Shown: piece by piece, positions 2,793 to 46,360 of the stretch | How the letters are laid out: every line of letters starts with the position of its first letter | How positions within the stretch are numbered: position 1 is the first letter of the stretch | Assembly: GCF_030252425.1 (NCBI RefSeq) | Contig: NZ_CP126994.1 | Span: 2,909,001 to 2,973,000 of the forward strand | DNA: 64,000 nt | Origin: Acidisoma sp. PAMC 29798 | Lineage (GTDB): Bacteria; Pseudomonadota; Alphaproteobacteria; Acetobacterales; Acetobacteraceae | Direction: 5' to 3' | Position numbers and translations under genes: made by a program | The notes under the pieces: model-generated | Databases searched by the model: none | The model's input: the letters and a program-made list of their open reading frames with translations, nothing else | What the model was told of the DNA's origin: nothing

Positions 2793-2859
2793 GGCGCTTG
2801 TATGGCGGAAAGGCGCAGCGTATTCCGCCAGCCACGTCAAAGCTAAGGGGAGTACAGTG

Positions 2860-3744: not shown

Positions 3745-3775
3745 GGGTGAAGTCGGCCAAGGTTAGTACTCCGTC

Positions 3776-3837: not shown

Positions 3838-3891
3838 GACGAAGGCTGGGTGAGTGGCCGCCTAGTCCAATTCGGCGGGTGACGATTTTGT

Positions 3892-17810: not shown

Positions 17811-17816
17811 GCGAGG

Positions 17817-18986
17817 TTGCGCTCGGCCCTTCTGCGCCTGCATCGCTGGGCAGGATTGTTGCTGGCGGGCTTCCTCATCATGGGGGGTCTCACCGGCAGC
17901 GTTATTGCCTTTAAAGAACCACTCGATGCCTGGCTGAATCCTGGCCTTTTCCACGCGCGGGCGTCCGGGCCTCGGCTGTCATTGGATGCGGTGACAGCGC
18001 GTTTCGCGAAGCAGGAGCCGAAGGTGCGGATCACCTACCTCGTCTTCGGGGTGCCGAGGGGCCAGGCGATCCGCGCCTTCGTGATGGGTCGCGGTCTAGA
18101 TTATAACGAGGTCTTTCTCGACCCCGTGAGCGGCACGATTCTCGGTCGCCGCATGTCGGGTGGCTGCTGCCTCGCCCGCGATCGCATCATTCCCTTTCTC
18201 TACGCGCTGCACTTCCAATTGATGGCGGGGCGGATCGGAGAGTGGATCATGGGCGGCGTGGCGCTGATCTGGTTCCTCGATTGTTTCGTTGCCCTGTCAC
18301 TAACTTTGCCACGCGCACGGCCTTTCCTGCGACACTTCCGCCAGGCCTGGCGCATCAAGCGCGGCGCAGGCGGCTTCCGACTGACCTTCGACCTGCATCG
18401 CGCCGGTGGGTTATGGCTTTGGGTGGTGCTGCCCGTTATCGCTTTCACCGGCTTCGCCCAGAATCTGGATGGCCCGGTCTTTCGTCCGGCGCTGAGCCTC
18501 GTGATGCCCGTGTCACCCCTGCCGCTCGCCCTCGCGGCGGCCCGGCCAAGGCCGAACCCGCTCCGTCATCGGCTCGGCGCCGACCAACTGGTCGCGATTG
18601 CCACGCAGGCGGTGCGGCGTGGCTGGCATGGCCCGGCCGGTAGCCTGTTCTGTGTCGACGCCTTCGGCGCCTGCGCGGTATATTTCTTCGAAGGTCCCGA
18701 TAACCGTGGCACCGGTTTCGGCAGCCCGATCGTTTATGTCGATGACAGCGACAGTGACAGCGGGAGTAGCGTGCTGCGCATCGACGGCCCGCGATCCGGC
18801 ACTGTGGGGGATATTATCGAGCGTTTGCAGTTCCCGCTGCATAGCGGCCAGATCGCCGGGCTTGCGGGCAAGATCGTCGTCTGCATCTCGGGTATGGCGA
18901 CAGTTGCGCTTGCGATCACGGGCCTGATGATCTGGTGGCGCAAGCGCGCAGCGCGGCGGCTGCAGAAGATGCGCACGCGGACGTGA
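17817..18986 (+). CDS. PepSY-associated membrane protein (siderophore reductase type)
   Basis: A 389-residue inner-membrane protein of the PepSY_TM family, often found after TonB-dependent siderophore receptors and linked to ferric-siderophore reduction. It has four main helices, at about residues 6-32, 135-160, 200-222 and 340-362. The first begins LHRWAGLLLAGFLIMGGLTGS with the conserved His, and LHFQLMAGRIGEW and HRAGGLWLWVVLP carry the other conserved His residues. The start is TTG at 17817, 7 bp after the receptor stop, with GCGAGG in front. The reading frame is intact, unlike the receptor and TonB-complex genes beside it. If the receptor no longer works, this gene may have lost its purpose or serve another receptor. 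Confidence 0.85.
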   Translation: MRSALLRLHRWAGLLLAGFLIMGGLTGSVIAFKEPLDAWLNPGLFHARASGPRLSLDAVTARFAKQEPKVRITYLVFGVPRGQAIRAFVMGRGLDYNEVFLDPVSGTILGRRMSGGCCLARDRIIPFLYALHFQLMAGRIGEWIMGGVALIWFLDCFVALSLTLPRARPFLRHFRQAWRIKRGAGGFRLTFDLHRAGGLWLWVVLPVIAFTGFAQNLDGPVFRPALSLVMPVSPLPLALAAARPRPNPLRHRLGADQLVAIATQAVRRGWHGPAGSLFCVDAFGACAVYFFEGPDNRGTGFGSPIVYVDDSDSDSGSSVLRIDGPRSGTVGDIIERLQFPLHSGQIAGLAGKIVVCISGMATVALAITGLMIWWRKRAARRLQKMRTRT

Positions 18987-19600: not shown

Positions 19601-21562
19601 TTAACGCGGGATTAGCAGATCCCACGACCGGCGATCGATCACCGTATCGCCCTCGGTTGCATCCAGGGTCGCCACCAGATGCCAAGCATCGGCAGTCGCC
19701 GTCAGGACGCAATGGGTTTCGATCTTTGCCTGCCAGTCGGGGCGATCGAACTCCGCCAGCCGCCAGGTTTCAGAGCGCGCAGCGCCCGGATCATCCGCCA
19801 CGATGCTGTAATCCTCATGACCAAGCGCGCGGAGCGTCAGCCCCGTCTCGGCAATACGCAGGGCGCCGAGATTGCGCACGACGTGCAAGTTTGTCTCGCC
19901 AGTACCGATCGCTCGTGTCCCGGTGATGCGCCCCCGCGCCGGCGGCTCGATCACCACCGCCTCCAGCGGCGGCGGTGACCAGGCGGTCCCTAAAATCTCC
20001 GGCGCCGGCCCCTCGCCCGCGCGCAGAGGTAACTCCAGCACGCCGCCATAGAGAGTCACAGTCGTAGCGCCCGGCAGGGGCGTGGCCAAGGGCCAGTACG
20101 CGGTCGAGACCGAAACGCGCAGGCGGTGCCCGACCGGCAGCGCGAAGCCCGTGGCTTTGAGATCGACGACCACGTCCGTCGCCTCTCCCAGCGTCAACGG
20201 TGTCGCGGTCTCATGTCCGTGACGATGGCGCAGGTTGAGCAGACCATAGGTGATGCGGCTGGCGGTGCCGTCCCCCGCCACGGCCGACAGGCGCACCGCA
20301 ACCATCCCCTCCGTCTGGTCGCAGGACAGCGTAAGATGAACACGCGCCCGGCCAAGGATCTCCACAGGGGCGACGAGTGGCGACGTATCAAAGGTCAGCG
20401 ACCCGGCATCGTCCTCCCGCTGATCGAGGGGCATATCCGGCCCCCAGCCATAAGGGCACCATTCGCCGGAGGCGAGGCCCGTCGTCGCCTGCGATTTCAC
20501 GCTCGCCGTGAAGGTGCTGGCAGTTCCGCTCAGCCCATCGGCGCCGAGATGGAAAAGCCGAGGCCGAAGATTGGCGCTCGGCCAGGTCGATTCCGCGACC
20601 CAATGCCCGGCGCGGACGGCGTATTGCGCGCGCGGCGGTTCGGCGTCCTGCATCCAGGCCGTGAGCCTCGGCTCATCCATCAGGCCGGTGTCGATGTCGC
20701 GCAGCCAATGGTCCCACCAGCGGATGACATAGGCCAGGAAGTCGATGCCGGGCCCTGGCGTCGCGACATGAGGGTACGCATGAGCCCAGGGGCCGATGAG
20801 ACCCTTGCGCGGTCCGGGCAAGCCTTCCAGCAGCCGCATCACGGCATTGACATAGCCATCGGCCCAGCCGCCCACCGCAAGCACGGCAGCAGATATGGCG
20901 CCGTAGTTCTCGCAGACCGAGCCGCTGCGCCAATAAGCGTCCCGCGTGCCATGGCGCATCCAGCGGGCGGCCGGCGGCTCATCGATCGCGGCCAGCCGCT
21001 CACGCCACATCTGCCGCCACCGATCGCCAACGATGGCGGGGTCGGGCGGCGTCGCCATCCAGGTGAACAGCGTGGCGCCGTATTGCAGATTATCGCTGAG
21101 CAGACAGCCGCCCATGTAATGCATGTCATCGGCATAGCGATCATCGGAGGCGCAGGTCGTGACAATGGCTTTCAGCGCCGGCGGCGCCAAGGCTGCGATC
21201 TGGAGGGCGTTGAAGCCGCTCCAACTCAGGCCGATCATGCCCACGCGACCGCAGCACCAGGGCTGCGCCGCGATCCAGGCGATCACCTCGACCGCATCGG
21301 CCCATTCGCCCGGCGTATATTCATCCCGCAGGACGCCATCGGAATCGCCGGCGCCGCGAAGATCGACGCGGATGGCGGCATAGCCGGCTTCGGCAAAGGC
21401 GGGGTGCAAGATGGCATCGTCGCCGCGATGACGATCCCGCCTGCGGTAGGGAAGATACTCGAGAATTGCCGGCGCGGCCTCTATCGCATCCGGCAGCCAG
21501 AGCTTGGCCGCCAGACGGCAACCGTCCGACAGCGTGATCCAGACGGTCTCGTCAACCCGCAT
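19601..21562 (-). CDS. CocE/NonD family hydrolase (copy A)
   Basis: A 653-residue X-Pro dipeptidyl-peptidase/cocaine-esterase-type enzyme. An alpha/beta hydrolase domain (residues ~1-300) has VDLRGAGDSDG, the nucleophile elbow GLSWSGFNAL with the catalytic Ser, GWADGYVNAV with the Asp and GPWAHAYPH with the His. A C-terminal jelly-roll domain follows. It should hydrolyse an ester or amide in the cytoplasm. I place the start at ATG 21562 (MRVDETVWIT), because the paralogue upstream starts at the same point in the fold. It overlaps the end of that gene by 11 bp. Last gene of the Rieske - dehydrogenase - CocE - CocE operon. Confidence 0.88.
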   Translation of the reverse strand: MRVDETVWITLSDGCRLAAKLWLPDAIEAAPAILEYLPYRRRDRHRGDDAILHPAFAEAGYAAIRVDLRGAGDSDGVLRDEYTPGEWADAVEVIAWIAAQPWCCGRVGMIGLSWSGFNALQIAALAPPALKAIVTTCASDDRYADDMHYMGGCLLSDNLQYGATLFTWMATPPDPAIVGDRWRQMWRERLAAIDEPPAARWMRHGTRDAYWRSGSVCENYGAISAAVLAVGGWADGYVNAVMRLLEGLPGPRKGLIGPWAHAYPHVATPGPGIDFLAYVIRWWDHWLRDIDTGLMDEPRLTAWMQDAEPPRAQYAVRAGHWVAESTWPSANLRPRLFHLGADGLSGTASTFTASVKSQATTGLASGEWCPYGWGPDMPLDQREDDAGSLTFDTSPLVAPVEILGRARVHLTLSCDQTEGMVAVRLSAVAGDGTASRITYGLLNLRHRHGHETATPLTLGEATDVVVDLKATGFALPVGHRLRVSVSTAYWPLATPLPGATTVTLYGGVLELPLRAGEGPAPEILGTAWSPPPLEAVVIEPPARGRITGTRAIGTGETNLHVVRNLGALRIAETGLTLRALGHEDYSIVADDPGAARSETWRLAEFDRPDWQAKIETHCVLTATADAWHLVATLDATEGDTVIDRRSWDLLIPR

Positions 21563-23558
21563 GAAGGATGGGCCATGCAAACCCGTCGGCGTCCTCAAAG
21601 CGATGCACCCAACGGCGCGAGAAGACGACGGCGCCATCTTCGCTGCCCGTCATTTCCGAGGTGAGGACGAAGGCATAGCCTTCCCGCCGCACTTCGGTGG
21701 ATGTTTCGATCGCGGTCGACCAGCCCGGCCGCTCGAAACTTTGGCGGCCACGGAAATGGGCGACGGCGGACGCGCCGTCTTTGGAATCTACGGTGTAGAT
21801 GTGCTCGCCATCGCCACCGATGGTCAGCTCATCGAGGGACCAGAGGGCGCGTGTTGAGCGAATGGCCTGCTCCGTGCGGCCTGTGCTCGCATCCCAAGTG
21901 ACGGTGCGCTTAATGGTGCCGGGCACCATCACCTCATGCGCGATCGGCGCCGCGGCCAGCGGCTCCGCGAAGGCCGGGAGGTCATGCACGGCCACGTGCG
22001 GCATTGGCGGCAGACAGAAGATCGCCGTCGTCGGCCAGATCGTGACCGCGCCTTTCGTCGGTTCCGGCCAGGCCATGGGCCAATAGTTGGTGGAGATGGC
22101 GAGGCGCATGCGGCAGCCCGGGGAGAACTCATAGGCCACGCCTTTGAGCGTCAGTGTGGCGCGGAAACGCTGACCGGCGAGCACGCCCTCAGGCAGCGAG
22201 ATCCGATGCAGGCCGAAGGTTACCCGGCCCGAGGTGCCGTCCGGCGCGATTTCGCACAAGCGGATCGCGAGCAACGCGGCCTTGCCGGCGAGGGCGAGAT
22301 CCAGGCTCAGCGACGGAATGCCGACCACCGCGACCGCATCGGTGAGAATCGGCGTGTCGAAACAGACCGAGAGTGCGTCGTCATAGCGATTATCGGCCTG
22401 GAATTCCGGCCCGTCCCCGCCGCCGTCGAGGGGGCACCACTCACCAGCATAAAGGCCGCAGTGTTGCGGCGTATCGATGACAAGAGGTCCGGCCGGCGAC
22501 GGCGTGCGGGCGAGCACATGATCGTCGAAATAATAGGCTTCGGGCGTGGCCTCGACCGGCCAGGAGGGCAGGCCGATCCAACGACCGTCGATCTCAGGCG
22601 AGCGCGGATCTGGCTTGAGGTCTCGCCCGACCCAGAGACGCAACATCGGCTCATCCATGATGCCGGTCTCCTCACCGCCGAGCCACTGCCGCCACCAGCG
22701 CACTGCTTCCTGCAAGAAGCCGATCTTAGGGCCGGGCTTGCCCCAGGTCGGATACATATGCGTCCAGGGGCCGATGAGGCCCTTGCGCGGCACGGTGAGG
22801 TTTTCCATCAGCCGCAGCACGGGATCGGAATAGCCATCCGTCCAGCCTGTGACGGCATAAACCGCGCATTGGATGTCGGCGTAACTTTCGCAGACCGAGG
22901 CGTGCTTCCAATAAGCATCCCGCGTGAGATGATCGAGCCATTGCGACAGAGGCGGTTCTGCGGCCTCCATGCGTTCCTGCCACATCGCCCGCCACCGATC
23001 GCCGACATGGGCGGGATCGGGCGGACGCCCGATTTGCGTGAACAATCCGGCACCCCAGGACAGCCCATCGTTCAGCAGCGCGCCGCCCATGAAATGCACA
23101 TCATCCGCATAGCGATCGTCGGTCGAGCAGCAGGTGATGATGGCCTTCAGCGCGGGCGGCCGCCGTGCCGCGACCTGAAGCGCCGCGAAGCCACCCCAGG
23201 AAATGCCGATCATACCGACATTGCCGTTGCTCCAGTCCTGCGCAGCCGCCCAGGCAATGACCTCGCACGCGTCATCCTGTTCCTGGCCCGTATATTCATC
23301 CTGCAAGGTGCCATCGGAATTGCCGCTACCGCGCAGATCGACCCGCAATGCCGCGAAGCCCTGGGCGGCGAACCACCCATGCATCATCGAATCCTCGATC
23401 GCCGTGCAATCGGATTGACGATAGGGAATCCATTCCAGAACCACCGGCACCGCGCGGTCTGTCAAGGGACGCCACAGCCGGCCGGCGAGCCTCGTCCCGT
23501 CCGACAGTGTAATCCAGACCTGCTCGAACGGATGGGGCAACAGGGTGTCGGCAGTCAT
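21552..23558 (-). CDS. CocE/NonD family hydrolase (copy B)
   Basis: A 668-residue paralogue of the next gene. It has the same order of marks: VDLRGSGNSDG, GISWGGFAAL with the catalytic Ser, GWTDGYSDPV with the Asp, GPWTHMYP with the His, and then a jelly-roll domain. The start at 23558 (MTADTLLPHP) has AGGAAAAACC upstream and lies 22 bp after the D-2-hydroxyacid dehydrogenase gene; a longer frame reaching 23705 would run inside that gene. The two copies are clearly homologous along their whole length but well diverged, so the duplication is not recent. They may act on different esters or amides of one substrate family. Confidence 0.88.
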   Translation of the reverse strand: MTADTLLPHPFEQVWITLSDGTRLAGRLWRPLTDRAVPVVLEWIPYRQSDCTAIEDSMMHGWFAAQGFAALRVDLRGSGNSDGTLQDEYTGQEQDDACEVIAWAAAQDWSNGNVGMIGISWGGFAALQVAARRPPALKAIITCCSTDDRYADDVHFMGGALLNDGLSWGAGLFTQIGRPPDPAHVGDRWRAMWQERMEAAEPPLSQWLDHLTRDAYWKHASVCESYADIQCAVYAVTGWTDGYSDPVLRLMENLTVPRKGLIGPWTHMYPTWGKPGPKIGFLQEAVRWWRQWLGGEETGIMDEPMLRLWVGRDLKPDPRSPEIDGRWIGLPSWPVEATPEAYYFDDHVLARTPSPAGPLVIDTPQHCGLYAGEWCPLDGGGDGPEFQADNRYDDALSVCFDTPILTDAVAVVGIPSLSLDLALAGKAALLAIRLCEIAPDGTSGRVTFGLHRISLPEGVLAGQRFRATLTLKGVAYEFSPGCRMRLAISTNYWPMAWPEPTKGAVTIWPTTAIFCLPPMPHVAVHDLPAFAEPLAAAPIAHEVMVPGTIKRTVTWDASTGRTEQAIRSTRALWSLDELTIGGDGEHIYTVDSKDGASAVAHFRGRQSFERPGWSTAIETSTEVRREGYAFVLTSEMTGSEDGAVVFSRRWVHRFEDADGFAWPILHAG

Positions 23559-23580
23559 CGAGGTTTTTCCTAGAACAGGA

Positions 23581-24576
23581 TCAATACGCGCGGCTGGGAA
23601 CGACGCGATTGCGGATTGTACGCCCCGCCAGGCTGCGCGCGAGATTATCGAGAAAGATGTCGAGCGTGCGGGGAATATAGGCGTCTGGATCGTCGCAGGA
23701 AACATGAGGCGTGATCACGAGGTTGGGCGTATCCCACAGCGGCGACTCAGCGGGCGGCGGTTCGGGGTCCGTCACGTCGATAATGGCGCCGCCGACATGG
23801 CGCGCCGTCAGCGCCGCGATCATCGCATCCTGATCCACCAGACCGCCGCGCCCGAAATTCGCGAAGCCCGCCCCTTTGCGCATACGTGCAAACATATCGG
23901 CGTTCATCATGTGTCGCGTCGCGGGTGTCAGCGGTGTCGCGAGCACCACGAAATCCGCCTCCCCAATCACATCCCGCGCGGCGTCAACACCAATCACGCT
24001 GTCAAAGCCCCGCACCGGCGCGGGTGTACGGCGAACGCCGGTCGTGACGATACCAAGGCGATGCGCCGCGCCAGCAATAGCCGTGCCGAGGCCACCGGTG
24101 CCGTAGATAAGGGCGCGACGGCCCGCGATTGGGGAACTGAAGGCCTTCGACCATTCATGGGCGCGTTGCGCGGTGATGAAATGCGGCATGTGCGTATGGA
24201 GCATCATGAAGACCATGCCCGCCCATTCGCGCAGCTTCGGCCCATGCACGCCACTGGCGGTGGCGAGCGCTACCTGTTTCGGCAACCAGTCGAGCGGCAG
24301 CAGATGCTCCATGCCAGCGGCACTGAGTTGGATGAGTTTCAGCGCCTGCCCGTGCGGCCGAATGCGGTCGGCCGGAAAACGGAAGCCGAGCAGCGCATAG
24401 GCACGGCCTAACGTCTCAATGAAATCTGGGCCGTCGATTGCGCAGAAATCGAATGCGAGCGCCGGCAAGGCCAACGTGCAGCGCGCCATCGCGGCATCGA
24501 TATGATGCTGTTCAATCCGAAAGATCGCGAGCTGTGCTGGATTGGTCGCGACCAGTATCCGGAGCGGAGCAGTCAT
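23581..24576 (-). CDS. D-2-hydroxyacid dehydrogenase
   Basis: A 331-residue NAD(P)-dependent enzyme. The coenzyme domain carries IYGTGGLGTAIAGAA at about residues 155-169. The catalytic set is visible: Arg in NFGRGGLVD, Glu in DVTDPEPPP and His in ITPHVS. This is the glyoxylate/hydroxypyruvate reductase branch rather than the lactate or PGDH type. It would interconvert a D-2-hydroxyacid and a 2-oxoacid. Its start overlaps the Rieske oxygenase stop by 4 bp (ATGA), so the two proteins are coupled. A possible logic is that the oxygenase releases a small 2-hydroxy- or 2-oxo-acid which this enzyme handles. Confidence 0.88.
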   Translation of the reverse strand: MTAPLRILVATNPAQLAIFRIEQHHIDAAMARCTLALPALAFDFCAIDGPDFIETLGRAYALLGFRFPADRIRPHGQALKLIQLSAAGMEHLLPLDWLPKQVALATASGVHGPKLREWAGMVFMMLHTHMPHFITAQRAHEWSKAFSSPIAGRRALIYGTGGLGTAIAGAAHRLGIVTTGVRRTPAPVRGFDSVIGVDAARDVIGEADFVVLATPLTPATRHMMNADMFARMRKGAGFANFGRGGLVDQDAMIAALTARHVGGAIIDVTDPEPPPAESPLWDTPNLVITPHVSCDDPDAYIPRTLDIFLDNLARSLAGRTIRNRVVPSRAY

Positions 24577-25733
24577 ACGCTGGGTGCCACGACACGGTCG
24601 AGCACCCAGTTGTCCAGACTATGGACCAGCGGTTCCATGATCGAGAAACGTCCGACCCGCGCGAAGGGCGAGCGTAAACCCTGCTGCTGCAATTCGGAGA
24701 TGACATTGTCTTCGGGAATCGATCGGTCCCATCGCTTGTAGTAGCGCTGCACGACTTCTTCGAAGTCGGGCCGCTCGGTGATAGCCTTTGGAAAGCAGGC
24801 GCCGGAAATGAGATGCATATGCTCCGGCCCGCGCGGATGCACTTCCAGCCACCACATGCAGTCGAAGGTCAGCGCCAGCATCGTGCCCGGATAGATCAGA
24901 ATGTAATAGGTACCTTCTGCGCTCGGCCCGGTCAGCGTCGGCAGATAGGGGAAGCCGGTATCGCCGGCTTCCAGCGCGCGGCTGCCTTCATGCTTGGTAT
25001 AGAGCCCCGACCATTGACCGGTCTCCCCATACAGCGGCGGCGAGATAGTGCGCTTTTGCCGCTGGATGGTTTTCGCGTGCACGGTGGGCACATGATAGGC
25101 CTCCATCGCATTCTCGACGTAGATCTTCCAATTACAGGCGATGTCCCAGGTCTTGCGACGCACGCAGACCATGTTCTCCAGATCATAGGCGGCGAGAAGT
25201 TCTGGAAGTTCCCCGAGAAAGCTGGCGAGATCGGGTACCGAGGGATCGAAGCAGAGGAACAGGAAGCCGCCCCAGCTTTCCAGACGAAATTCATCGAGAC
25301 CGAAATCCGCCGTCTCGAAACAGGCGGTGTCTTCCATTTCGGGCGCGCCGCGCAGGGCGCCTTTCAGATCATAGGTCCAGCTATGATAGGGGCAGCGGAT
25401 CGCCGCAATCTCCCCCTCGCCTTCCAGCAAGCGGGCACCGCGGTGGCGGCAGGTATTGGCGAAGGCTCGCAGACGACCATCCTTGCCATGCACCACCGCG
25501 ACGGGAATGCCGGCGAAATCGAGCGTGAAATACTGGCCCGGCTGGGCCACACGCGCCGCGCGGCCGATGAAGTTCCAGGTCTTGCCAAAGATCTTCTCGA
25601 CCTCGGCTGCATAGAAACCAGGCGTCGTATAAGTCCAGGGCGGCATGGTCTCCGCCTCCAGCAAAGGACGGCGCACCGCCTGGAAATGCTCGGGCGACAA
25701 GGGATTCTCGGGCGGCAGCCAGCGTGGTGTCAT
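24573..25733 (-). CDS. Rieske non-heme iron oxygenase, alpha subunit
   Basis: A 386-residue ring-hydroxylating-type oxygenase. The Rieske domain has C95-R-H97 and C114-P-Y-H117. The catalytic domain has E-N-A-M-E-A-Y-H-V-P-T-V-H at residues 207-219, giving iron ligands His214 and His219. The residue that bridges Rieske and iron sites between subunits is Glu211, where most of the family has Asp. The carnitine monooxygenase CntA also uses Glu there. That places it near quaternary-amine demethylating or cleaving oxygenases (CntA, GbcA type) rather than arene dioxygenases. No reductase gene is adjacent, so electrons must come from elsewhere. It is the first gene of a four-gene operon and is divergent from PhyH. 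The substrate is unknown. Confidence 0.85.
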   Translation of the reverse strand: MTPRWLPPENPLSPEHFQAVRRPLLEAETMPPWTYTTPGFYAAEVEKIFGKTWNFIGRAARVAQPGQYFTLDFAGIPVAVVHGKDGRLRAFANTCRHRGARLLEGEGEIAAIRCPYHSWTYDLKGALRGAPEMEDTACFETADFGLDEFRLESWGGFLFLCFDPSVPDLASFLGELPELLAAYDLENMVCVRRKTWDIACNWKIYVENAMEAYHVPTVHAKTIQRQKRTISPPLYGETGQWSGLYTKHEGSRALEAGDTGFPYLPTLTGPSAEGTYYILIYPGTMLALTFDCMWWLEVHPRGPEHMHLISGACFPKAITERPDFEEVVQRYYKRWDRSIPEDNVISELQQQGLRSPFARVGRFSIMEPLVHSLDNWVLDRVVAPSV

Positions 25734-25808
25734 GAGTATGAGCCTGATTCCTGCATGTCGTCCGCTTCTTGCATGTCAATCGTGTTGCATCGCCTGTCGC
25801 GTTGTGTA

Positions 25809-25819
25809 CAGTATGCAGA
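25809..25819. promoter_or_regulatory. Putative GntR operator, site A
   Basis: CAGTATGCAGA is a near-palindromic 11-mer in the divergent Rieske/PhyH promoter region. It is 35 bp before the PhyH start and 75 bp from the Rieske start. It matches CWGTATRCAGA, also found at sites B (32745-32755, opposite strand) and C (46350-46360). The FadR-subfamily GntR protein at 29.4-30.1 kb is the candidate binder. Confidence 0.5.
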
Positions 25820-25854
25820 CCGGATTTCAACAGGTCAAACGGAGATCGCTTCAG

Positions 25855-26754
25855 ATGTCTGCCACCGCAACCAGGCTCACGACGGACGCCGCCCCGACCA
25901 CGACACGCCCGATCACACCGCGCGAGATCGCCTTGTTCGAGCGGGATGGTTTCGTGATCCTGCCGGGCTTCTTCAGCGATGCCGAAGTGGCCCCGCTGCG
26001 GGAGACCTGCACGGCGGACCCCACCTTGGGCGGTCGTCTGCGCGCGGTCGCGGACAGCACCGGCAATGCCCAGGAAGTCATCGGCTGGACCGCCTTCACC
26101 GATGATTATCTCGGCGTGGTTCCGCGCATGGCGCGCCTTGTCGATGGCGCCGACGCCCTGCTCGGCAAGCCGTCCTATCACTGGCACTCAAAGCTTTCGA
26201 TGAAGGCGCCGCATACCGCCGGCCGCTGGGACTGGCACCAGGATTATCCGTACTGGTACGACGAAGGCTGCATGAAGCCCGATATGCTAACCTGCATGAT
26301 CGCCATCGACCGCGTGACCAAGACCAATGGCTGCGTGACGCTGGTGCCGGGATCGTATCTCTATGGCCGCGTCAATCACGTTCAGGTCGGCGAAGCGAGC
26401 GGCTGCGACCCCGTGCGCCTCGAACTCATGCTGAAGGCGCTTCCGCTGGTCCCGGTCGAGCTGGAGCCGGGCGATGCCTGCTTCTTCCATGGCAATACGC
26501 TGCATGCGTCGAGCGGCAATACCTCCGACTTCCCGCGCACCGTGCTCCATTGCTCCTACAACACGATCGAAAACTCGCCCTTCCTTGAGGAAGGCCAGGA
26601 GCATCACAAATATAAGCCCTTCAGCAAGCTGCCGGACTCCGTGCTTGTCGACCACGCGTGGAAAGACATCTACAAGAACCACGAGTTCAACAAGGCGCGC
26701 GTCGCCGATGGAAAGACCAACAGCTATGGCTATAAGGTCGTCAGCAGGATGTAA
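25855..26754 (+). CDS. Phytanoyl-CoA dioxygenase (PhyH) family protein
   Basis: A 299-residue Fe(II)/2-oxoglutarate-type dioxygenase on the double-stranded beta-helix fold. FERDGFVILPGFFSDAEV at about residues 29-46 is the usual PhyH N-terminus. The metal site is H-x-D in WDWHQDYPYW, with the distal His in FHGNTLHASS and the 2-oxoglutarate Arg in FPRTVLHCSYN. It should hydroxylate a small organic substrate and release succinate and CO2. I use the ATG at 25855, with GGAGA upstream; the open frame extends left without coding character. The stop overlaps the next start by one base (TAATG). Site A lies just upstream. It is the partner of the divergent Rieske operon. Confidence 0.87.
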   Translation: MSATATRLTTDAAPTTTRPITPREIALFERDGFVILPGFFSDAEVAPLRETCTADPTLGGRLRAVADSTGNAQEVIGWTAFTDDYLGVVPRMARLVDGADALLGKPSYHWHSKLSMKAPHTAGRWDWHQDYPYWYDEGCMKPDMLTCMIAIDRVTKTNGCVTLVPGSYLYGRVNHVQVGEASGCDPVRLELMLKALPLVPVELEPGDACFFHGNTLHASSGNTSDFPRTVLHCSYNTIENSPFLEEGQEHHKYKPFSKLPDSVLVDHAWKDIYKNHEFNKARVADGKTNSYGYKVVSRM

Positions 26755-27830
26755 TGGCTGAAATTCTCGACGGGATCCGCTTCCACGCGGCTGAGCTTGA
26801 GAGTTTCGTCGGGACTTTGTTCACGCGGATGGGGGCACCAGCGCCCACCGCGAGTGCCGTCGCCCGGGCCGTCACGGCGGCCTCGGCACGCGGCTTCGAC
26901 ACCCACGGCGTGCGCCTGGTTCCCTATTACGCGTCGCTCGTCACGGGCCGTCGTGTCAATCTCGCGGCCAATCTGGTCTTCACCCGCCGCGCCCCCGCCG
27001 TGGGTCATCTCGATGCCGATGACGGCTTTGGCCATATCGCGAGCTTTCGCGCTATCGATGAGGCCATCGCGATGGCCAAGGAGACCGGCGTCGCTGTCGT
27101 GGCTGTCGGACGCTCCTCCCATCACGGTGCAACCGGCACTTACACCCATTACGCCGCCGAGCAGGGCTTCGCCGCTATCGGCATGACCAATTCGCCGCCG
27201 ATCGTCGTGCCGCATGACGGGACAACGCCGTTCTTCGGCACCAATCCTCTGAGTTTCGCGCTGCCGGTGGAGGGTGAGACCCCGCTGCTACTCGACATGG
27301 CGACCAGCAGCATGCCGCTGAACCGTGTGGAACTTCGCCAGGCCGTTGGCAGTGTGCTGCCGCTGGGTGTCGCGATCGACAGTACGGGCGCCGAGACCAC
27401 CGACCCGGCGGCGGTCGTGGCGCTGCTGCCGCTGGGCGGCACCGTTTTCGGCCATAAGGGTGCGGGATTGGCGGCGATGGTCGATGTGCTGTGCTCGGTC
27501 TTCACCGGCATGCCGCATGGCAATCAGCTGCCGCGTAGCGCTGACGCCGGCATCCATGATTGGCCCTCCGTCGGGCATTTCTTCATCGTTATGAATCCCG
27601 CCGTGTTCCAGGCGCTGGCTGCCTTCAATGGCGGTGTGACGCGCTTCCTCGACGATCTGCGCAGCCAGCCGGCGCGCGATGGCGCCACCATCATGGCGCC
27701 GGGCGATGTGGAGAAGGGCATGGCACGGGAGCGCGCGGCGGAAGGCGTTCCGATCGATCGGCTGAGTTGGGCGAAGATTTCGGCCCTCGCTGAGGAGTTT
27801 GGGTGCGACGTGCCGGTGGCGGTTAATTAG
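26754..27830 (+). CDS. Ldh family (malate/L-lactate/ureidoglycolate-type) dehydrogenase
   Basis: A 358-residue member of the non-Rossmann Ldh2/YlbC-type NAD(P) oxidoreductases, which include L-malate, L-sulfolactate, ureidoglycolate and delta-1-piperideine-2-carboxylate reductases. Marks: DTHGVRLVPYY with the catalytic His (residues about 44-54), GRSSHHGATGTYTHYA, TNSPPIVVPHDG, FFGTNPLSFALP and GHKGAGLAAMVD. It would reduce or oxidise a 2-oxo/2-hydroxy acid or cyclic imine. It is coupled to the PhyH dioxygenase by a one-base overlap. The substrate is unknown. A dioxygenase followed by a 2-hydroxyacid dehydrogenase mirrors the Rieske plus D-2-hydroxyacid dehydrogenase pair on the other strand. 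Confidence 0.87.
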   Translation: MAEILDGIRFHAAELESFVGTLFTRMGAPAPTASAVARAVTAASARGFDTHGVRLVPYYASLVTGRRVNLAANLVFTRRAPAVGHLDADDGFGHIASFRAIDEAIAMAKETGVAVVAVGRSSHHGATGTYTHYAAEQGFAAIGMTNSPPIVVPHDGTTPFFGTNPLSFALPVEGETPLLLDMATSSMPLNRVELRQAVGSVLPLGVAIDSTGAETTDPAAVVALLPLGGTVFGHKGAGLAAMVDVLCSVFTGMPHGNQLPRSADAGIHDWPSVGHFFIVMNPAVFQALAAFNGGVTRFLDDLRSQPARDGATIMAPGDVEKGMARERAAEGVPIDRLSWAKISALAEEFGCDVPVAVN

Positions 27831-27857
27831 TCTTCGTCATCTCCATTTAATTTCGTC

Positions 27858-27950
27858 ATTCGCGGACTTGATCCGCGAACCTACCCGCTATGGCGCCCAA
27901 ACATCGTCATGGCGCCGCAACGGGTAAGTCCCCGGGTCAAGCCCGGGGAT
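27858..27950. repeat. Paired palindromes (intergenic repeat copy 3)
   Basis: A 23-nt hairpin at 27858-27880 (TTCGCGGA stem, CTTGA loop region) and another at 27928-27950 (TCCCCGGG stem, TCAAG loop region) are flanked by CGTCATT and GGATGAC. This matches copies 1 and 2. The longer spacer contains its own inverted pair, TACCCG against CGGGTA and TGGCGCC against GGCGCC, so the whole element could fold into one large cruciform. It lies between the convergent Ldh-family and aldolase genes. Confidence 0.8.
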
Positions 27951-27972
27951 GACAATTATGTTCCGAGACGCC

Positions 27973-28737
27973 TCAACCCCGCCAAGTCGGATCGACGGCA
28001 TCGAGCAGCCGTAGCATCGCCGGCCACATGCGCTGCCCCGCGAGCGGCGGATTGAAAGCGCTGGTATATTGCGGCATCGTCGCTTCCACCACCTCCGGCG
28101 ACGGATGCAGAATCGGCCGGCCGCTGGCCAGCACATCCATCTGCACCTGCGCCGCCTGCTCCAGATAATACGTGAAGTAGAACGAAGCGGGAATATTCGC
28201 GCCGACCGTCAACAAGCCATGATTGCGCAACACCAGCGCGACATTGCCGGCGATGTCGCGGTTGAGGCGCGCACCTTCTTCCATGTTGAAGGCAATGCCT
28301 TCGTACTCATGGTAGCCGATGCGCTTGTGGAACTCGATGGCGAATTGGTTGATCGGCATCAGACCGTCCTGCAAGCAGGACATCGCGACCCCTGCGCGCG
28401 TATGCGTGTGGATGACGCAGTTAATGTCGGGATTGGCGGCGAGGATGGCGCCGTGAATGACGAAGCCGGCGGCATTGGCGGGGTAGCGATCATTGCCAAC
28501 GACGCGGCCTGCGAAATCGAGTTTCACCAGCACGTCCGGCGTAATTTCCCGAAACAGCAGGCCGAAGGGATTGATCAGGAAGGCGTCCTCGCCCGGCACC
28601 CGCACCGAGGCATGGGTGAAGATCAGATCATCCATTTTAAAATAGGCGAGAAGACGGTAAACCGCTGCGAGATGAAGCCGCACCTCACCCTCCGATTGCA
28701 TCGGAATGATTTTGGATGGGGCATCCTTGATGATCAT
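27973..28737 (-). CDS. Class II aldolase/adducin family protein
   Basis: A 254-residue class II aldolase-fold protein. The first metal-site His is in IFTHASVRVPG, the His pair is in CVIHTHTRAG (residues about 109-118), and the last His is in LRNHGLLTVG. These zinc enzymes cleave or decarboxylate sugar phosphates or small hydroxy-ketoacids (fuculose aldolase and 3-oxo-tetronate-phosphate decarboxylase types). The 36-bp gap to the divergent DUF1028 gene must hold both promoters. It is in the middle of the accessory catabolic region, so a carbon-carbon cleavage step is plausible. The exact substrate is not readable. An ATG at codon 13 (MQSEGEV) is an alternative start. Confidence 0.82.
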   Translation of the reverse strand: MIIKDAPSKIIPMQSEGEVRLHLAAVYRLLAYFKMDDLIFTHASVRVPGEDAFLINPFGLLFREITPDVLVKLDFAGRVVGNDRYPANAAGFVIHGAILAANPDINCVIHTHTRAGVAMSCLQDGLMPINQFAIEFHKRIGYHEYEGIAFNMEEGARLNRDIAGNVALVLRNHGLLTVGANIPASFYFTYYLEQAAQVQMDVLASGRPILHPSPEVVEATMPQYTSAFNPPLAGQRMWPAMLRLLDAVDPTWRG

Positions 28738-28773
28738 GATTGAAAACTTCCACTCTCTATACGGAGGATCGCT

Positions 28774-29421
28774 ATGACATTCTCGATCGTGGCGCGCTGC
28801 GCCGAGACCGGTCGGCTAGGGGTCGCGGTCGCCACGGCGAGCCTCGCGGTGGGTGGGCGCTGCCCCTACGCCATGAGTGGCGTCGGCGCAGTGACGACGC
28901 AAAATCGGACCCACCCGATGATCGGCCCGCGCGTGCTGGAACTGCTGCGCGATGGCGTGGCTGCGCAGGACGCGGTGGAGGCGGCGGCAACGGCCTTCCC
29001 CTTCCCCGAATGGCGCCAGGTCGCGGTTGTGGATTTCAAAGGTGGGGTCGGCGTTTTCCACGGCGCAGACTGTTCCGGCGTGCATGCGGAGGCCCGGGGC
29101 GCGGGCGTGGTGGCGCTCGGCAATCTGCTGCAAACCGATGCCGTGCCCGGCGCGATGATTGCGGCCTTCGAGGCGACGGTGGGGATGTTGGAAGATCGGC
29201 TGCTCGCCGGCCTCGCCGGCGGTCTCGCGGCCGGTGGTGAGGTCAACCCCCTGCAATCGGCGGCGCTGCTGGTAGTGGATGGCGACCCCTTCCCCTTCAC
29301 CAATCTGCGCGTCGATTGGGATGGCGCGGCACCGCTGGAGACACTGCAAGCGCTGTGGCAAAAATGGCGCCCGGTGGCGGGGACCTACCGCACCTGGGCG
29401 GTCGATCCGTCGAGCGTTTAG
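28774..29421 (+). CDS. DUF1028 family protein
   Basis: A 215-residue DUF1028 protein starting MTFSIVARCAETGRLGVAVAT. This fold is like Ntn-hydrolases of the proteasome type, and family members are often called putative peptidases or amidases without firm evidence. Family marks include GRCPYAMSGVGAVTTQ, VVDFKGGVGVFHG and LVVDGDPFPFTNLRVDW. The start has CGGAGG 7 bp upstream. It is convergent with the GntR gene, 17 bp apart. In other genomes DUF1028 genes often sit with M20 peptidases and transporters, which fits the M20-HpaB-GntR operon beside it. The reaction is unknown. Confidence 0.82.
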   Translation: MTFSIVARCAETGRLGVAVATASLAVGGRCPYAMSGVGAVTTQNRTHPMIGPRVLELLRDGVAAQDAVEAAATAFPFPEWRQVAVVDFKGGVGVFHGADCSGVHAEARGAGVVALGNLLQTDAVPGAMIAAFEATVGMLEDRLLAGLAGGLAAGGEVNPLQSAALLVVDGDPFPFTNLRVDWDGAAPLETLQALWQKWRPVAGTYRTWAVDPSSV

Positions 29422-29438
29422 CGAAGACGGCGCCGCGA

Positions 29439-30116
29439 TCAAACCGGTTCGACCCGGAAGAGCAAATCATAGGTGCGGCGAAGGTGTTCGCGAATCGCCT
29501 TCTCCGCCGTGTCGGGGTCGCGGTCGCGAATCGCTTCGGCGATGCGGCCGTGATCGTCGATGACCGTGCGGGTTTCACTGGGCGTATAGCGCTGAAGGCT
29601 GCGCGGGCTCGCGAAGAGTTCGCGGTAGTCGCTGACGAGACGTTCAAGGCGCGGCGCGCGGGCGGCGGTGGTGATCGCCATATGGAATTCGAGATTGAGC
29701 TGCGCCCGCGTCTCGACATCCGTGGGATCGGCATCGCGGCTTGCCTGCGCAAGGTCGAGGATGCGGGCAATTTCCTCATCCGTGGCACGCAGCGCCGCGA
29801 GCCGGGCGGCACAGCCCTCGATCGCCTCGCGGATATAGTAGATGTCGGTGAGTTCCAGGCTTGGATCGACGACTTCGATGCCGGAGCCTTTGGCGGCACG
29901 CACGAGACCATCCTTGGCCAGACGCGCAAAAGCCTCGCGCACCGGGGTGCGGCTGATGCCGAACATGGCGGCGATCGCGACTTCGGTCAGCCGCTCACCA
30001 GGGCGAAACTCCCCATCGATGATGGCCCGCCTCAGCCGGTCATAGGCCTGTTCGGAATTGGTCTTCGGCGTTTCGATCCGCCACTGGCTTGATGGACTCT
30101 GGCTCGATGTGCTCAT
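29439..30116 (-). CDS. GntR family (FadR subfamily) transcriptional regulator
   Basis: A 225-residue regulator. The N-terminal winged helix (residues about 20-85) has EQAYDRLRRAIIDGEFRPGE and MFGISRTPVREAFARL. The C-terminal all-helical FCD ligand domain (about 90-215) has the metal/ligand positions Asp, His and His in EFHMAITTAA and IDDHGRI-type segments. Such proteins usually repress nearby catabolic genes until an organic acid binds. The start ATG 30116 overlaps the HpaB stop by 4 bp, so it is the third gene of the M20-HpaB-GntR operon. The motif at this operon's start codon (site B), repeated at sites A and C, is its likely operator, implying autoregulation. Confidence 0.9.
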   Translation of the reverse strand: MSTSSQSPSSQWRIETPKTNSEQAYDRLRRAIIDGEFRPGERLTEVAIAAMFGISRTPVREAFARLAKDGLVRAAKGSGIEVVDPSLELTDIYYIREAIEGCAARLAALRATDEEIARILDLAQASRDADPTDVETRAQLNLEFHMAITTAARAPRLERLVSDYRELFASPRSLQRYTPSETRTVIDDHGRIAEAIRDRDPDTAEKAIREHLRRTYDLLFRVEPV

Positions 30117-31594
30117 GCAGCCTCGTCGCACGAAGCGCGCATCTCAGGAAGATCGAAACCGGCCATCATCCGCGCCCGCGCCAGGGCGGCGTCCCGGTCA
30201 TAGGTCGCAAACAGGGCGGCTTCCTGCGCGAAGACCGGCGTTTCCGCGAAAAGTTGATAGGCCTGGGTCCGGCCGGCATAGGAGGAGGCGGTCAATTCCC
30301 GCGCCAGATGCATGACCTTCAGGCGCACCTCGGCATCATTGCCGGCAACGCGGAAGAACTTGCGGACATCGGCGCCGATCTCAGGATGATCGAGCATCGC
30401 ATGATCTGGCAACATCACCACCTGCCCGCCCGCGATTTCCCGCAGGTAATGGACCATCTCGTTATAGGTCTGCGAGCAATAGACGCGGCCGGCATTCTGG
30501 ATCGCCTGATTGGGCATGACATAGCCTGAGCGCGTGGTCTGGCAAGCGGTTTCGGACGCGATGAGGAAGGCTTCGATCGACTGCTTGAAGACCATGATCT
30601 GGCTGATCTTGGAGCGGATGACCGGAATGCCGATGGTGCCCGATTGCTCGGCGATCAGGAGGGCCGTGCCGACCAGCAGATCGGCCTTGGCAAGGCAACG
30701 CGTGAGATAGCCCTGCGCCGCCCAACGCGCGAATTCGCTGCGCATCAAGGCTGCGAGTTCGGGCTTGCGGCTGAAAATAACGTCGTCCCACGGTACGAGG
30801 ACATTGTCGAAGACGATCAAGGTGTCGATCTCATCGAACTTCGCCGTGATCGGATGATCCCGCTCGGAGGCGTGGCCCGCGCCGCCCGCCGTCAATGGCA
30901 TGCGGCAGATATGGCGCACGCCTGGTGCGTTGAGTTTGACGATGCAAGACACCGCATAGTCACGGTTATCGGGAACCCAGTTACCGACGGTCGGTTTGAT
31001 GAAAGCGACATGGGCATAGGGCGCGCCGGTTTCGAACTTGGCACCGCTGATGACGATGCCTTCATCGGTTTCCTTGACGACGCGCAGATAAAGGTCGGGG
31101 TCGTCTTGCTCGAACGGTTGCTTTGAGCGGTCACCCTTGGGGTCGGTGTTGCCGCTGGTCATGAACAGGTTTTCGCGCTGCAAACGCTCCAGCCAAGCAG
31201 CGCCATTGCGGCGATAGCGCAGGTCGAAACGGTCAAAGAGATCGCCGCGATCCTTGATCACGAACAAGGGCGATACGGTTTCATCGCCAAACCGGTCCAT
31301 CGTCGAGCAGACCTGCCGCAGAACTGTGCTGGTCATTTGCCGACGCAAGACGAGGTCTTCCCGCGTCTCCGGGATTTTATAGAAGCGCGAGCCGCGCCCG
31401 CCTTCCGGCAAGGCGAAGGTCATCACCTCCCGATATTCGGGGTCGTGATGCAGATCATAGATCTGCGACACGGCATCGACCATCGGCGCGAAGGCGGGAT
31501 GCGTCGTCACATCCGCGACCGCCTCACCGCCGATCCAGATACGGCGGCCATCTTTCAGGCTGGCACGATACTCGGCACCCGTCATCAATCCCAT
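30113..31594 (-). CDS. 4-hydroxyphenylacetate 3-monooxygenase (HpaB) family oxygenase
   Basis: A 493-residue FADH2-dependent monooxygenase of the HpaB/PvcC/4-hydroxybutyryl-CoA-dehydratase-like acyl-CoA dehydrogenase fold. It starts MGLMTGAEYRASLKDGRRIW, the family N-terminus. It continues with TGAPYAHVAFIKPTVG in the flavin-contacting sheet and LIVFDNVLVPWDDVIF, followed by a helical C-terminal domain. It would hydroxylate a phenol or similar ring using reduced flavin from a separate reductase, which is not encoded next to it. The start ATG 31594 overlaps the M20 stop by 10 bp, with GGGAGCC in front. Pairing with an amide-cleaving M20 enzyme suggests an N-acylated or amide-linked phenolic substrate; this is inference. 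Confidence 0.87.
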   Translation of the reverse strand: MGLMTGAEYRASLKDGRRIWIGGEAVADVTTHPAFAPMVDAVSQIYDLHHDPEYREVMTFALPEGGRGSRFYKIPETREDLVLRRQMTSTVLRQVCSTMDRFGDETVSPLFVIKDRGDLFDRFDLRYRRNGAAWLERLQRENLFMTSGNTDPKGDRSKQPFEQDDPDLYLRVVKETDEGIVISGAKFETGAPYAHVAFIKPTVGNWVPDNRDYAVSCIVKLNAPGVRHICRMPLTAGGAGHASERDHPITAKFDEIDTLIVFDNVLVPWDDVIFSRKPELAALMRSEFARWAAQGYLTRCLAKADLLVGTALLIAEQSGTIGIPVIRSKISQIMVFKQSIEAFLIASETACQTTRSGYVMPNQAIQNAGRVYCSQTYNEMVHYLREIAGGQVVMLPDHAMLDHPEIGADVRKFFRVAGNDAEVRLKVMHLARELTASSYAGRTQAYQLFAETPVFAQEAALFATYDRDAALARARMMAGFDLPEMRASCDEAA

Positions 31595-32751
31595 GCGCCG
31601 GCTCCCGAAAGTGTGGTTATCAGTCCGGCCAAGACGGCCGCGCGATCGAACAGACTGTCCAGCGGAATACGCTCTCGCCGGCTACAGGAGTCGAAACAGA
31701 TCGGCCCGAGGCCGTCCAGTGTCGGGCGACCGAGGGCGGCGGCGAAACTGCCATCCGACCCGCCGCCGCTTTCGACCGCCGGATAGTCGAGGCCCAGCGC
31801 CGTGGCCGTTGCCAGTGCCGCCGCATACAGGCCAGCACTGGCGGAGGTCGGGAAGGCCGGGCGGGTGATGCCGCCGGTCATGGAAATCCGTACACGCGGA
31901 TCACGCAGGGCCAGCACGAGGTCACGCACACGGCCCAGCAGCGCCTCGGCCCTCTCCGCCGTGCGCGCGCGCAAATCGATATGCATCTCACAATCCTGGG
32001 GCACGACCTGACGGGCATCGCCGCCGCGCAGAATGCCGATGCTGATGACATCGCCGGTGGCGGCATCGCTCAGCGCTTCCAAAGGCGCCACCTTGGCCGC
32101 CAGTTCCGCGAGGGCGCTGGCGCCCTCCGCCTTGTTGACGGTATGAGCAGAGCGCCCCTCGGCGCGCACGACGATGGCGCCCACCGCGCCGCGCCCCACG
32201 ACCACGGCGCCATTGGCCCGCGCCGGTTCCAGCACCAGCACCCAGTCTGCCGCACGCGCCTCCGCCTCAATCCAGGTGCGGGAGGCGGCGGAACCGACTT
32301 CCTCATCGGGCACCAAGACGTGGCGGATTTCGCCAATGCCGTCGAAGCCGCTGTCGATCAGCGCCTCGACCGCGGCATGGGCCATGACGAGGCCGCCCTT
32401 CATATCACCCACGCCCGGTCCGCTCGCCATGCCATCCGCCTCGGCATAGCGCCAATCCCGCAGGCTCTCATTCGGCCAGACGGTATCGAGATGGCCGAGG
32501 ATCATCACCCTGCCCCGTCCGCCGAACTGCCGTGTAAAGGTCCGCTGCGCCCCGAAGCCCGGCAGGGCGCGCCGCTCACTGGTAAAACCAAGCGGCTCCC
32601 ACAAACCCGCGACCGCATCGCCGACCGCATCGACGGCCGCCGCGTCATGGGAACCGGCAGCGAGGTTCACGAGGGTTTCGAGACGAGCCGCGATAACATG
32701 CGGGCGAGAGACGATCGCCGCGCGGAGGCTCGCTGGTGATGTACTCTGCAT
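31585..32751 (-). CDS. M20 family metallopeptidase (glutamate carboxypeptidase-like)
   Basis: A 388-residue M20 di-zinc amidohydrolase. The catalytic set is visible: GHLDTVWP with a zinc His and Asp (residues about 86-93), GVGDMKGG with the bridging Asp and VPDEEVGS with the general-base Glu. A dimerisation domain (about 180-290) and a C-terminal zinc His region follow. It is closest in layout to carboxypeptidase G2/ArgE-type enzymes that cut N-acyl amino acids. First gene of the M20-HpaB-GntR operon. The ATG at 32751 has no ribosome site. A possible -10 (TATAGG) lies about 9-14 bp upstream, so the mRNA may be leaderless, and the operator-like site B covers the start codon. Confidence 0.88.
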   Translation of the reverse strand: MQSTSPASLRAAIVSRPHVIAARLETLVNLAAGSHDAAAVDAVGDAVAGLWEPLGFTSERRALPGFGAQRTFTRQFGGRGRVMILGHLDTVWPNESLRDWRYAEADGMASGPGVGDMKGGLVMAHAAVEALIDSGFDGIGEIRHVLVPDEEVGSAASRTWIEAEARAADWVLVLEPARANGAVVVGRGAVGAIVVRAEGRSAHTVNKAEGASALAELAAKVAPLEALSDAATGDVISIGILRGGDARQVVPQDCEMHIDLRARTAERAEALLGRVRDLVLALRDPRVRISMTGGITRPAFPTSASAGLYAAALATATALGLDYPAVESGGGSDGSFAAALGRPTLDGLGPICFDSCSRRERIPLDSLFDRAAVLAGLITTLSGAGAWD

Positions 32752-32755
32752 ACAG
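32745..32755. promoter_or_regulatory. Putative GntR operator, site B, overlapping a start codon
   Basis: On the minus strand the sequence is CTGTATGCAGA, an exact match to CWGTATRCAGA. Its central ATG (32751-32749) is the start codon of the M20 gene. It is flanked by a further inverted GTA/TAC, giving a near-palindrome over 32741-32760. Binding here would block both transcription start and, if the mRNA is leaderless, the first codons. Confidence 0.55.
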
Positions 32756-36581: not shown

Positions 36582-36661
36582 CCTATCCCCCGATTGATCG
36601 TTGCCTTTCCTGAGACGCAATAAACGTGCCAGACAGTCCGATCATCGGGGACGTGGGCGGG

Positions 36662-38005: not shown

Positions 38006-38034
38006 GCTGATGGCTGCTCCTGCTGTGTCTGATG

Positions 38035-40164: not shown

Positions 40165-40189
40165 CCCCGTCCCTCCCTCAGACCTATGG

Positions 40190-41755: not shown

Positions 41756-41789
41756 GCACGCGATTCCTTTGATGAAAGATCGGTTGAGA

Positions 41790-46349: not shown

Positions 46350-46360
46350 CTGTATACAGA
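46350..46360. promoter_or_regulatory. Putative GntR operator, site C, in the Tmm/Tdm operon leader
   Basis: CTGTATACAGA contains the perfect palindrome CTGTATACAG (46350-46359), inside a longer near-palindrome TATCCTGTATACAGATA. It matches CWGTATRCAGA as at sites A and B. It sits in the 295-bp gap (46151-46445) between the permease start and the GT8 stop; I see no gene in that gap. Being 200 bp from the start codon, it implies either a long leader or a promoter near the site. Confidence 0.5.

Follow-up and report, generated by a model that had tools for sequence, protein, structure and literature searches.

A candidate uptake-and-catabolism regulon for a trimethylammonium compound in Acidisoma sp. 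PAMC 29798

Quaternary-ammonium Rieske oxygenases carry a Rieske motif of the form CxH...CxxH together with a two-histidine site in which a glutamate takes the bridging position. The aerobic oxidation of trimethylamine (TMA) proceeds through Tmm and Tdm and subsequently through Dmm and GmaS/Mgs/Mgd (PMC13390433). Ergothionase is described as lacking the methylidene-imidazolone (MIO) group (PMC13405746). The stretch considered here, hereafter the window, comprises 64,000 nucleotides of the genome of Acidisoma sp. PAMC 29798 and contains, between positions 19601 and 46150, a group of oxygenase, hydrolase, dehydrogenase, importer and TMA genes. These genes may form an inducible regulon that takes up and degrades a natural compound of the quaternary-ammonium (trimethylammonium) type. 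The compound would probably resemble an amino-acid betaine and combine a (hetero)aromatic part with an ester or amide bond. This reading is preferred, with confidence that stands about even.

Operons and operator-like sites in the window

The sequence-only reading of this DNA had delimited a region at 19601 to 32751 with three types of oxygenase (Rieske, PhyH and HpaB), two 2-hydroxyacid dehydrogenases, two CocE hydrolases, an M20 amidohydrolase, a class II aldolase and a DUF1028 protein, arranged in tightly coupled operons around a possible common operator. The enzyme calls are based on Pfam scans of window proteins, which covered part of the window's genes, and all ten enzymes of the region are recovered far over the Pfam cut-offs. 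The minus strand contains two S15/CocE-type hydrolases, CocE1 of the alpha/beta type (19601 to 21637) and CocE2 (21552 to 23705), whose starts, judged from the beginning of their domains, are likely near 21562 and 23558, respectively. These are followed by the D-2-hydroxyacid dehydrogenase (D2HDH, 23581 to 24576) and the alpha subunit of the Rieske oxygenase (24573 to 25733), with the motif NWKIYVENAMEAYHVPTVH. The plus strand then encodes a PhyH-type 2-oxoglutarate oxygenase with an HQD motif and the malate/lactate-type dehydrogenase Ldh_2 (26754 to 27830). The PhyH open frame (25645 to 26754) runs into the Rieske gene, and the ATG at 25855, which is preceded by GGAG, is the likelier start, giving a gene of 25855 to 26754. 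The class II aldolase (27973 to 28737, minus strand) belongs to the PRK07044 subfamily, with 293 bits against a cut-off of 207. The DUF1028 protein (28774 to 29421, plus strand), assigned by Pfam and by a structure model, has an N-terminal nucleophile (Ntn) hydrolase fold and a conserved Thr2. The GntR/FCD regulator (29439 to 30131), the HpaB-family flavin monooxygenase (30113 to 31594) and the M20 amidohydrolase (31585 to 32751), whose closest solved structure is carboxypeptidase G2, complete the region on the minus strand. The tight coupling is borne out by overlaps of 1 to 19 bases between same-strand neighbours (Rieske/D2HDH at 24573/24576, PhyH/Ldh_2 at 26754, M20/HpaB at 31585/31594 and HpaB/GntR at 30113/30131).

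Among the NCBIfam matches shown for 19601 to 32751, those over cut-off are to subfamily models, namely the aldolase PRK07044 and two CocE/NonD assignments. No equivalog model exceeds its cut-off for any gene of this region, GntR included, among the matches shown, and the curated models therefore recognise no named pathway inside it. Rfam, at gathering thresholds, gives no match anywhere in the window.

Operator-like sites of the pattern CTGYATACWG are found between the Rieske and PhyH genes (CTGCATACTG, 25809 to 25818, minus strand), at the start of the M20-HpaB-GntR operon (CTGCATACAG, 32746 to 32755, plus strand) and, as a strandless perfect palindrome, upstream of OppB (CTGTATACAG, 46350 to 46359). 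The window holds four strand matches at three places against 0.07 expected, a figure that is no unbiased test, since the sites were first spotted by reading the intergenic regions and the pattern was defined afterwards. The 4.99 Mb genome contains nine distinct places, three of them within 20.5 kb here.

The same site precedes a further minus-strand operon at 34857 to 46150, so that the limits set by the sequence-only reading are too narrow and the unit extends beyond 32751. This operon encodes an OppBCDF-type ATP-binding cassette (ABC) importer (42380 to 46150, with B at 45206 to 46150, C at 44310 to 45269, D at 43357 to 44313 and F at 42380 to 43558), a stand-alone DUF1989 protein (41790 to 42524) and, as the importer's periplasmic binding protein, an SBP_bac_5 protein (40190 to 42007, the true start being probably later). 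Three genes identified by curated models adjoin the SBP_bac_5 gene on the same strand and almost without gaps. They encode Tdm, the trimethylamine N-oxide (TMAO) demethylase (38035 to 40164; NF053776, 1213.6 bits against a cut-off of 1100), Tmm, the trimethylamine monooxygenase (36662 to 38155; NF058570, 831.1 against 675), and a TMAO permease (34857 to 36620; NF053774, 873.6 against 690). Because of this layout, the importer and the trimethylamine pathway genes look like one operon. A Hint-domain gene at 32900 to 34870 (plus strand), between the M20 operon and the Opp/TMA operon, is probably unconnected with the unit.

Recurrence of the genes and of the sites in other genomes

A genome scan with PhyH yields 49 loci, of which eight were studied and the other 41, at 30% identity or less, were left out. 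Five of the studied loci show 58-65% identity and belong to Zavarzinia sp., Gluconacetobacter tumulisoli, Novosphingobium album and two metagenome-assembled genomes (MAG), the gammaproteobacterium bog_1204 (gamma MAG) and the Acetobacteraceae bog_908 (Acetobacteraceae MAG). HpaB orthologues of 74-77% are present in three of the eight genomes (Zavarzinia and the two MAG).

The gamma MAG carries on a single 57 kb contig CocE2 (61%), PhyH (58%), SBP_bac_5 with OppBCDF (48-55%), D2HDH (65%), the Rieske protein (73%), the aldolase (74%), DUF1028 (65%), GntR (63%), HpaB (77%) and M20 (62%), as well as a DUF1989 match, a TonB receptor and a LysR gene. The Acetobacteraceae MAG likewise contains, on one contig, OppF (cut by the contig end), SBP_bac_5, PhyH, a TonB receptor, LysR, the aldolase, DUF1028, GntR, HpaB, M20, the Rieske protein and D2HDH; CocE2 is not seen in its stretches. 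In this MAG, SBP_bac_5 and PhyH share one open frame of 812 amino acids (L013, 1006-3444), which is a fusion or an assembly effect. The genes of Zavarzinia are distributed over two contigs, one with SBP_bac_5, Opp, D2HDH and PhyH and the other with M20, CocE2, the aldolase, DUF1028, GntR and HpaB; the Rieske gene is not seen in Zavarzinia, both of whose contigs end within the cluster. CocE2 matches of 57-61% occur in Zavarzinia, the gamma MAG and Novosphingobium, and D2HDH matches of 53-65% in three related genomes. Neither a match to Ldh_2 nor a separate copy of CocE1 is found in the related clusters, which places both outside the conserved set. The presence of the set in Alpha- and Gammaproteobacterial bins makes its horizontal transfer likely, although mis-binning of the gamma bin, which is a MAG, is possible.

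Parts of the set also occur alone. On the La6 plasmid and in the genomes G282 and G105, HpaB (65-67%), the aldolase, DUF1028 and GntR are joined by a Pot-like importer and an NtaA-type monooxygenase, and the PhyH/Rieske/Opp part is missing from the stretches seen of all three. The La6 module includes M20 and a flavin reductase; M20 is not detected in the fetched stretches of G282 and G105. Beside the La6 module (L090, 25259-32627) lies a second, Rut-like set, annotated as RutA, RutD, RutC, an endoribonuclease L-PSP protein and a purine/nucleoside-type ABC importer. Novosphingobium has PhyH, Opp and CocE2 without HpaB. Of 395 genomes of the window's order, 3 (the Acidisoma genome included) contain HpaB at E <=1e-200, and of 385 genomes of its class, 1 contains it at E <=1e-130, the Acidisoma genome itself. 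The search of plasmids with PhyH returns six records, the top one at 38%. More distant HpaB relatives (about 40%) have RidA and DUF1028 as neighbours, joined variously by flavin reductase, M20 and LysR, in all four plasmid records opened (Paracoccus, Aminobacter, Rhizobium and Bacillus; L091-L094) among nine with HpaB relatives below 60%. Within the window's order, DUF1028 lies in the fetched stretches around 10 of 16 such relatives (L070-L085). This HpaB/RidA/DUF1028 set is apparently a wider undescribed module.

A matrix built from the three window sites only was scored against 200 first-order random sequences per locus. On the La6 plasmid (Paracoccaceae) the three top places coincide with the promoters of the GntR/NtaA-type operon, flavin reductase/HpaB and PotD, and on the Zavarzinia contig L007 the two top places are at D2HDH/PhyH and upstream of OppB; none of the 200 random sequences equals any of these five. 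A weaker place lies at or beside the start of M20/CocE2 on the Zavarzinia contig L103 (5 of 200 random sequences), and the top place of the gamma MAG is at M20/LysR (2 of 200). Nothing above chance is found in L010 (Novosphingobium), L066, L068, L009, L102 and L104. The window sites and the matrix matches elsewhere support the suspected common operator at the three promoter regions. The GntR/FCD protein is the putative binder of these sites and the probable ligand-responsive regulator of the regulon; it is the natural candidate because HpaB/GntR and the sites mostly travel together (L066 and L068 excepted).

To the left of the unit, the window contains a TonB-dependent receptor gene split by one in-frame stop (15654 to 17138 and 17157 to 17810, same frame), and next to it a PepSY_TM gene. 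Both receptor pieces are matched in one frame by a relative in L082. The split receptor and the PepSY gene (15654 to 18986) were kept out of the unit, as they have no match in the related cluster stretches compared.

Rieske enzyme, methylamine genes, lyase, HpaB and DUF1028

The nearest PDB entries of the Rieske protein are 3vca/5hl4 and 4qup, which we take to be of the stachydrine-demethylase type, and the carnitine monooxygenase 6y9c. The protein contains CRHRGARLLEGEGEIAAIRCPYH and ENAMEAYHVPTVH and keeps the bridging glutamate, in alignment with DNYMECYH of CntA and ENNRECYH of 3vca; the residue is also kept in the orthologues of the gamma and Acetobacteraceae MAG. Judged by these motifs and relatives, the enzyme is of the quaternary-amine oxygenase type (CntA/GbcA/Stc2). 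Its score for the GbcA equivalog is 151.5 bits against a cut-off of 670, and it is therefore not GbcA itself.

Operons resembling mgsABC-gmaS, the genes of the methylamine route (PMC13390433), are found near related clusters. In Zavarzinia the distance to M20 is 1.3 kb, in Gluconacetobacter that to PhyH is 2.9 kb, and in the Acetobacteraceae MAG that to D2HDH is 4.3 kb, with unrelated genes between. In the Acidisoma genome, mgsABC-gmaS is encoded about 6 kb beyond the left end of the window, and its distance from CocE1 is about 26 kb. The gmaS model exceeds its cut-off in five of eight genomes searched, in the gamma MAG on another contig than the cluster, and in none of G282, G105 and Novosphingobium. 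About 12 kb right of the Opp operon, the window contains sarcosine-oxidase-family alpha, beta and gamma genes (58171 to 63232; alpha 1360 against 1164 bits, beta 688 against 529, gamma under its cut-off), which possibly encode an N-methylglutamate dehydrogenase.

The PhyH/Opp cluster of Gluconacetobacter (L009) carries an aromatic-lyase-family protein whose best PDB match is ergothionase (6s7j/6s7q, 7e-42). This protein lacks the Ala-Ser-Gly MIO motif; GEGD, as in ergothionase, is present in L009, L128, L129 and L132, and GESD in L130. By eye, the N-terminus of the L009 lyase (2461-4368) resembles a signal peptide, which suggests a periplasmic TMA lyase beside an importer. Orthologues of the lyase, at 47-59%, are encoded in the Acidisoma genome and in both MAG. 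Within the window's order this rare lyase is found in 3 of 390 genomes; PhyH is found in 2 of 395, and both of these carry the lyase as well.

The HpaB protein misses both HpaB equivalog cut-offs (256.4 against 480.2 bits and 195.6 against 885.2 bits). In the HpaB of T. thermophilus, Y104, H142 and R100 are presumably the contacts of 4-hydroxyphenylacetate. The equivalent of R100 is kept here (R101), and those of Y104 and H142 are replaced by E105 and S147, both invariant in 8 of 8 aligned sequences. By score and by residues, the protein is assigned to a distinct subclade and not to the 4-hydroxyphenylacetate 3-monooxygenases. The DUF1028 model shows an Ntn-hydrolase fold with the nucleophile, Thr2, at the mature N-terminus, and a role as a Thr-nucleophile amide hydrolase in the pathway is proposed. 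No paper naming DUF1028 was found in the literature searched.

Proposed pathway, competing explanations and known systems

In the proposed pathway, the Opp-type importer would take the compound up and the Rieske enzyme would oxidatively remove the quaternary nitrogen, freeing TMA. PhyH would oxidise a carbon that adjoins the nitrogen or belongs to the side chain, or alternatively an N- or O-alkyl group. The TMA would be processed further by the products of the Tmm, Tdm and permease genes, and methylamine would enter the GmaS/Mgs route encoded left of the window. CocE and M20 would cleave ester or amide bonds and DUF1028 would hydrolyse an amide. HpaB may hydroxylate the ring and the aldolase cleave a C-C bond, and D2HDH, joined in Acidisoma by Ldh_2, would interconvert the resulting 2-hydroxy and 2-oxo acids. 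The GntR/FCD regulator would bind CTGYATACWG at the three promoter regions. The analysis shows the gene families, the layout of the operons, their recurrence, the operator-like sites, the identity of Tmm and Tdm by curated models and the Ntn fold of the DUF1028 model; from these we infer the substrate class, the order of the steps, GntR as the binder and every catalytic role. Homarine, trigonelline, pyrrole-2-carboxylate, betaine lipids and ergothioneine itself were weighed as candidate substrates.

The sequence-only reading had suggested the stepwise breakdown of an amide- or ester-linked, N-methylated or aromatic compound. The N-methyl and amide/ester part of this suggestion fits, and its N-methyl part is strengthened by the Tmm, Tdm and TMAO permease genes in the Opp operon, the mgs/gmaS genes near related clusters and the quaternary-amine-type Rieske site. 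The aromatic part finds indirect support only, because HpaB lacks two of the three presumed 4-hydroxyphenylacetate residues and no ring-cleaving dioxygenase is seen among the scanned window genes. The parts are of known kinds; as the earlier reading had supposed, no described pathway with this combination, and no such substrate for it, was found in the literature searched. A more specific form of the proposal is tentative and rather doubtful: an undescribed pathway that imports a trimethylammonium heteroaromatic natural product (an amino-acid betaine or an ester or amide conjugate), releases TMA by a Rieske oxygenase that replaces or stands beside an ergothionase-type lyase, opens the ring by means of an HpaB of a new subclade and a DUF1028 amidase with a Thr nucleophile, and is governed by one GntR regulon spread horizontally between Alpha- and Gammaproteobacteria. 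If true, the pathway would represent a new route by which trimethylamine and methylamine arise in soils and bogs and would provide the first function for DUF1028, a family often near HpaB-type enzymes. It would also set a new HpaB subclade apart from the phenol hydroxylases, and the regulator-operator pair would be a handle for finding the inducer.

Several observations weigh against a quaternary-ammonium regulon. No Rieske reductase is seen among the scanned window genes, nor does the window have a match to the flavin reductase of La6; the reductase partners may be supplied from elsewhere. Tmm exceeds its cut-off in only three of eight genomes searched, Zavarzinia and the gamma MAG not among them, Tmm/Tdm stand within the Opp operon in the window only, and the 57 kb cluster contig of the gamma MAG has no Mgs, GmaS or Tmm match. 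The lyase is not found in Zavarzinia (31% match only) and has no match in Novosphingobium; in the Acidisoma genome it lies about 2.9 Mb from the cluster, among other genes, and is thus tied to it by co-occurrence only. The operator pattern was chosen post hoc, and its reversed form, used as a control, still matches three times in the genome. The M20/Rieske place of the Acetobacteraceae MAG is not significant alone (29 of 200 random sequences), and a better scorer (13 of 200) falls inside an unrelated open reading frame.

The competing explanation that survives best, although it is improbable, is that the core (HpaB, M20, aldolase, DUF1028 and GntR) degrades an N-heteroaromatic ring without a quaternary amine, the TMA operon being an unrelated neighbour behind the Opp genes. 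The modules with the NtaA-type monooxygenase and the Pot-like importer agree with this, as the La6 stretch has no Tmm match and G282 and G105 have none that exceeds the cut-off. The association of the 40% HpaB relatives with RidA, DUF1028 and, variously, flavin reductase or M20 would likewise fit a nitrogen ring that is hydroxylated and opened by hydrolysis. On the other hand, the TMA genes of the window stand almost without a gap behind the Opp genes, on the same strand and behind a site common to the catabolic operons, and methylamine genes lie near related clusters elsewhere.

It is quite unlikely that the unit serves to import and degrade a siderophore- or metallophore-like molecule. TonB-dependent receptors are indeed present in the related clusters of the Acetobacteraceae MAG, the gamma MAG, Novosphingobium and Gluconacetobacter, the first of these receptors is weakly siderophore-receptor-like (125.5 bits, under the cut-off of 223.5), and the SBP_bac_5 protein is weakly similar to nickel-binding NikA models, among others. 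However, TonB receptors carry non-iron substrates too, the Acetobacteraceae MAG receptor has no match in the Acidisoma genome at E 1e-60, nor in the window, and no siderophore-biosynthesis or iron-regulator gene is recognised among the scanned window genes. It is very unlikely that the neighbouring sub-operons are unrelated, each with a function of its own. The neighbourhood comparison proposed with the sequence-only reading gave a mixed outcome in this respect: the sub-modules do occur apart in other genomes, but a known function of an unrelated kind came to light for neither, they stand together in the window and in another three genomes, two of which have them on one contig, and separate operons have operator-like sites in common. 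A phenolic (4-hydroxyphenyl) pathway in which HpaB makes a catechol is the least probable, since the family membership of HpaB and its nearest PDB entry, the chlorophenol 4-monooxygenase 3hwc, are set against the E105/S147 replacements, the missed equivalog scores and the lack of a ring-cleaving dioxygenase among the genes scanned. Riboflavin catabolism was dropped as a candidate, as the accessible part of its description names other enzymes (PMC12746152).

The quaternary-ammonium regulon can finally be placed beside its closest described relatives. It is like CntA, GbcA and stachydrine demethylase in the Rieske and mononuclear iron motifs, the bridging glutamate and the best solved relatives, and it differs in a score far under the GbcA cut-off, in the reductase partner, which is not seen among the scanned genes, and in the D2HDH and CocE neighbours. 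With aerobic TMA oxidation it has in common Tmm, Tdm and the TMAO permease, all over their cut-offs, and the mgsABC-gmaS operon beyond the left end of the window; here, in contrast, the TMA genes are preceded by DUF1989, an Opp-type importer and an operator-like site that the catabolic operons also have. Ergothioneine catabolism is approached through the related MIO-less lyase, present in the Gluconacetobacter PhyH/Opp cluster and elsewhere in three cluster-bearing genomes, whereas no lyase is seen among the scanned window genes; to our knowledge, HpaB, PhyH, CocE and the aldolase are no part of the Ert route. The two-component phenol monooxygenases HpaB/TftD belong to the same sequence family as the HpaB protein of the window, which keeps the R100 equivalent and differs in the positions of Y104 and H142 and in its partners M20, aldolase and DUF1028. 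From the DUF1028 family (PDB 2imh), the protein of the window is distinguished by the pathway role proposed here, that of a Thr-nucleophile amide hydrolase.

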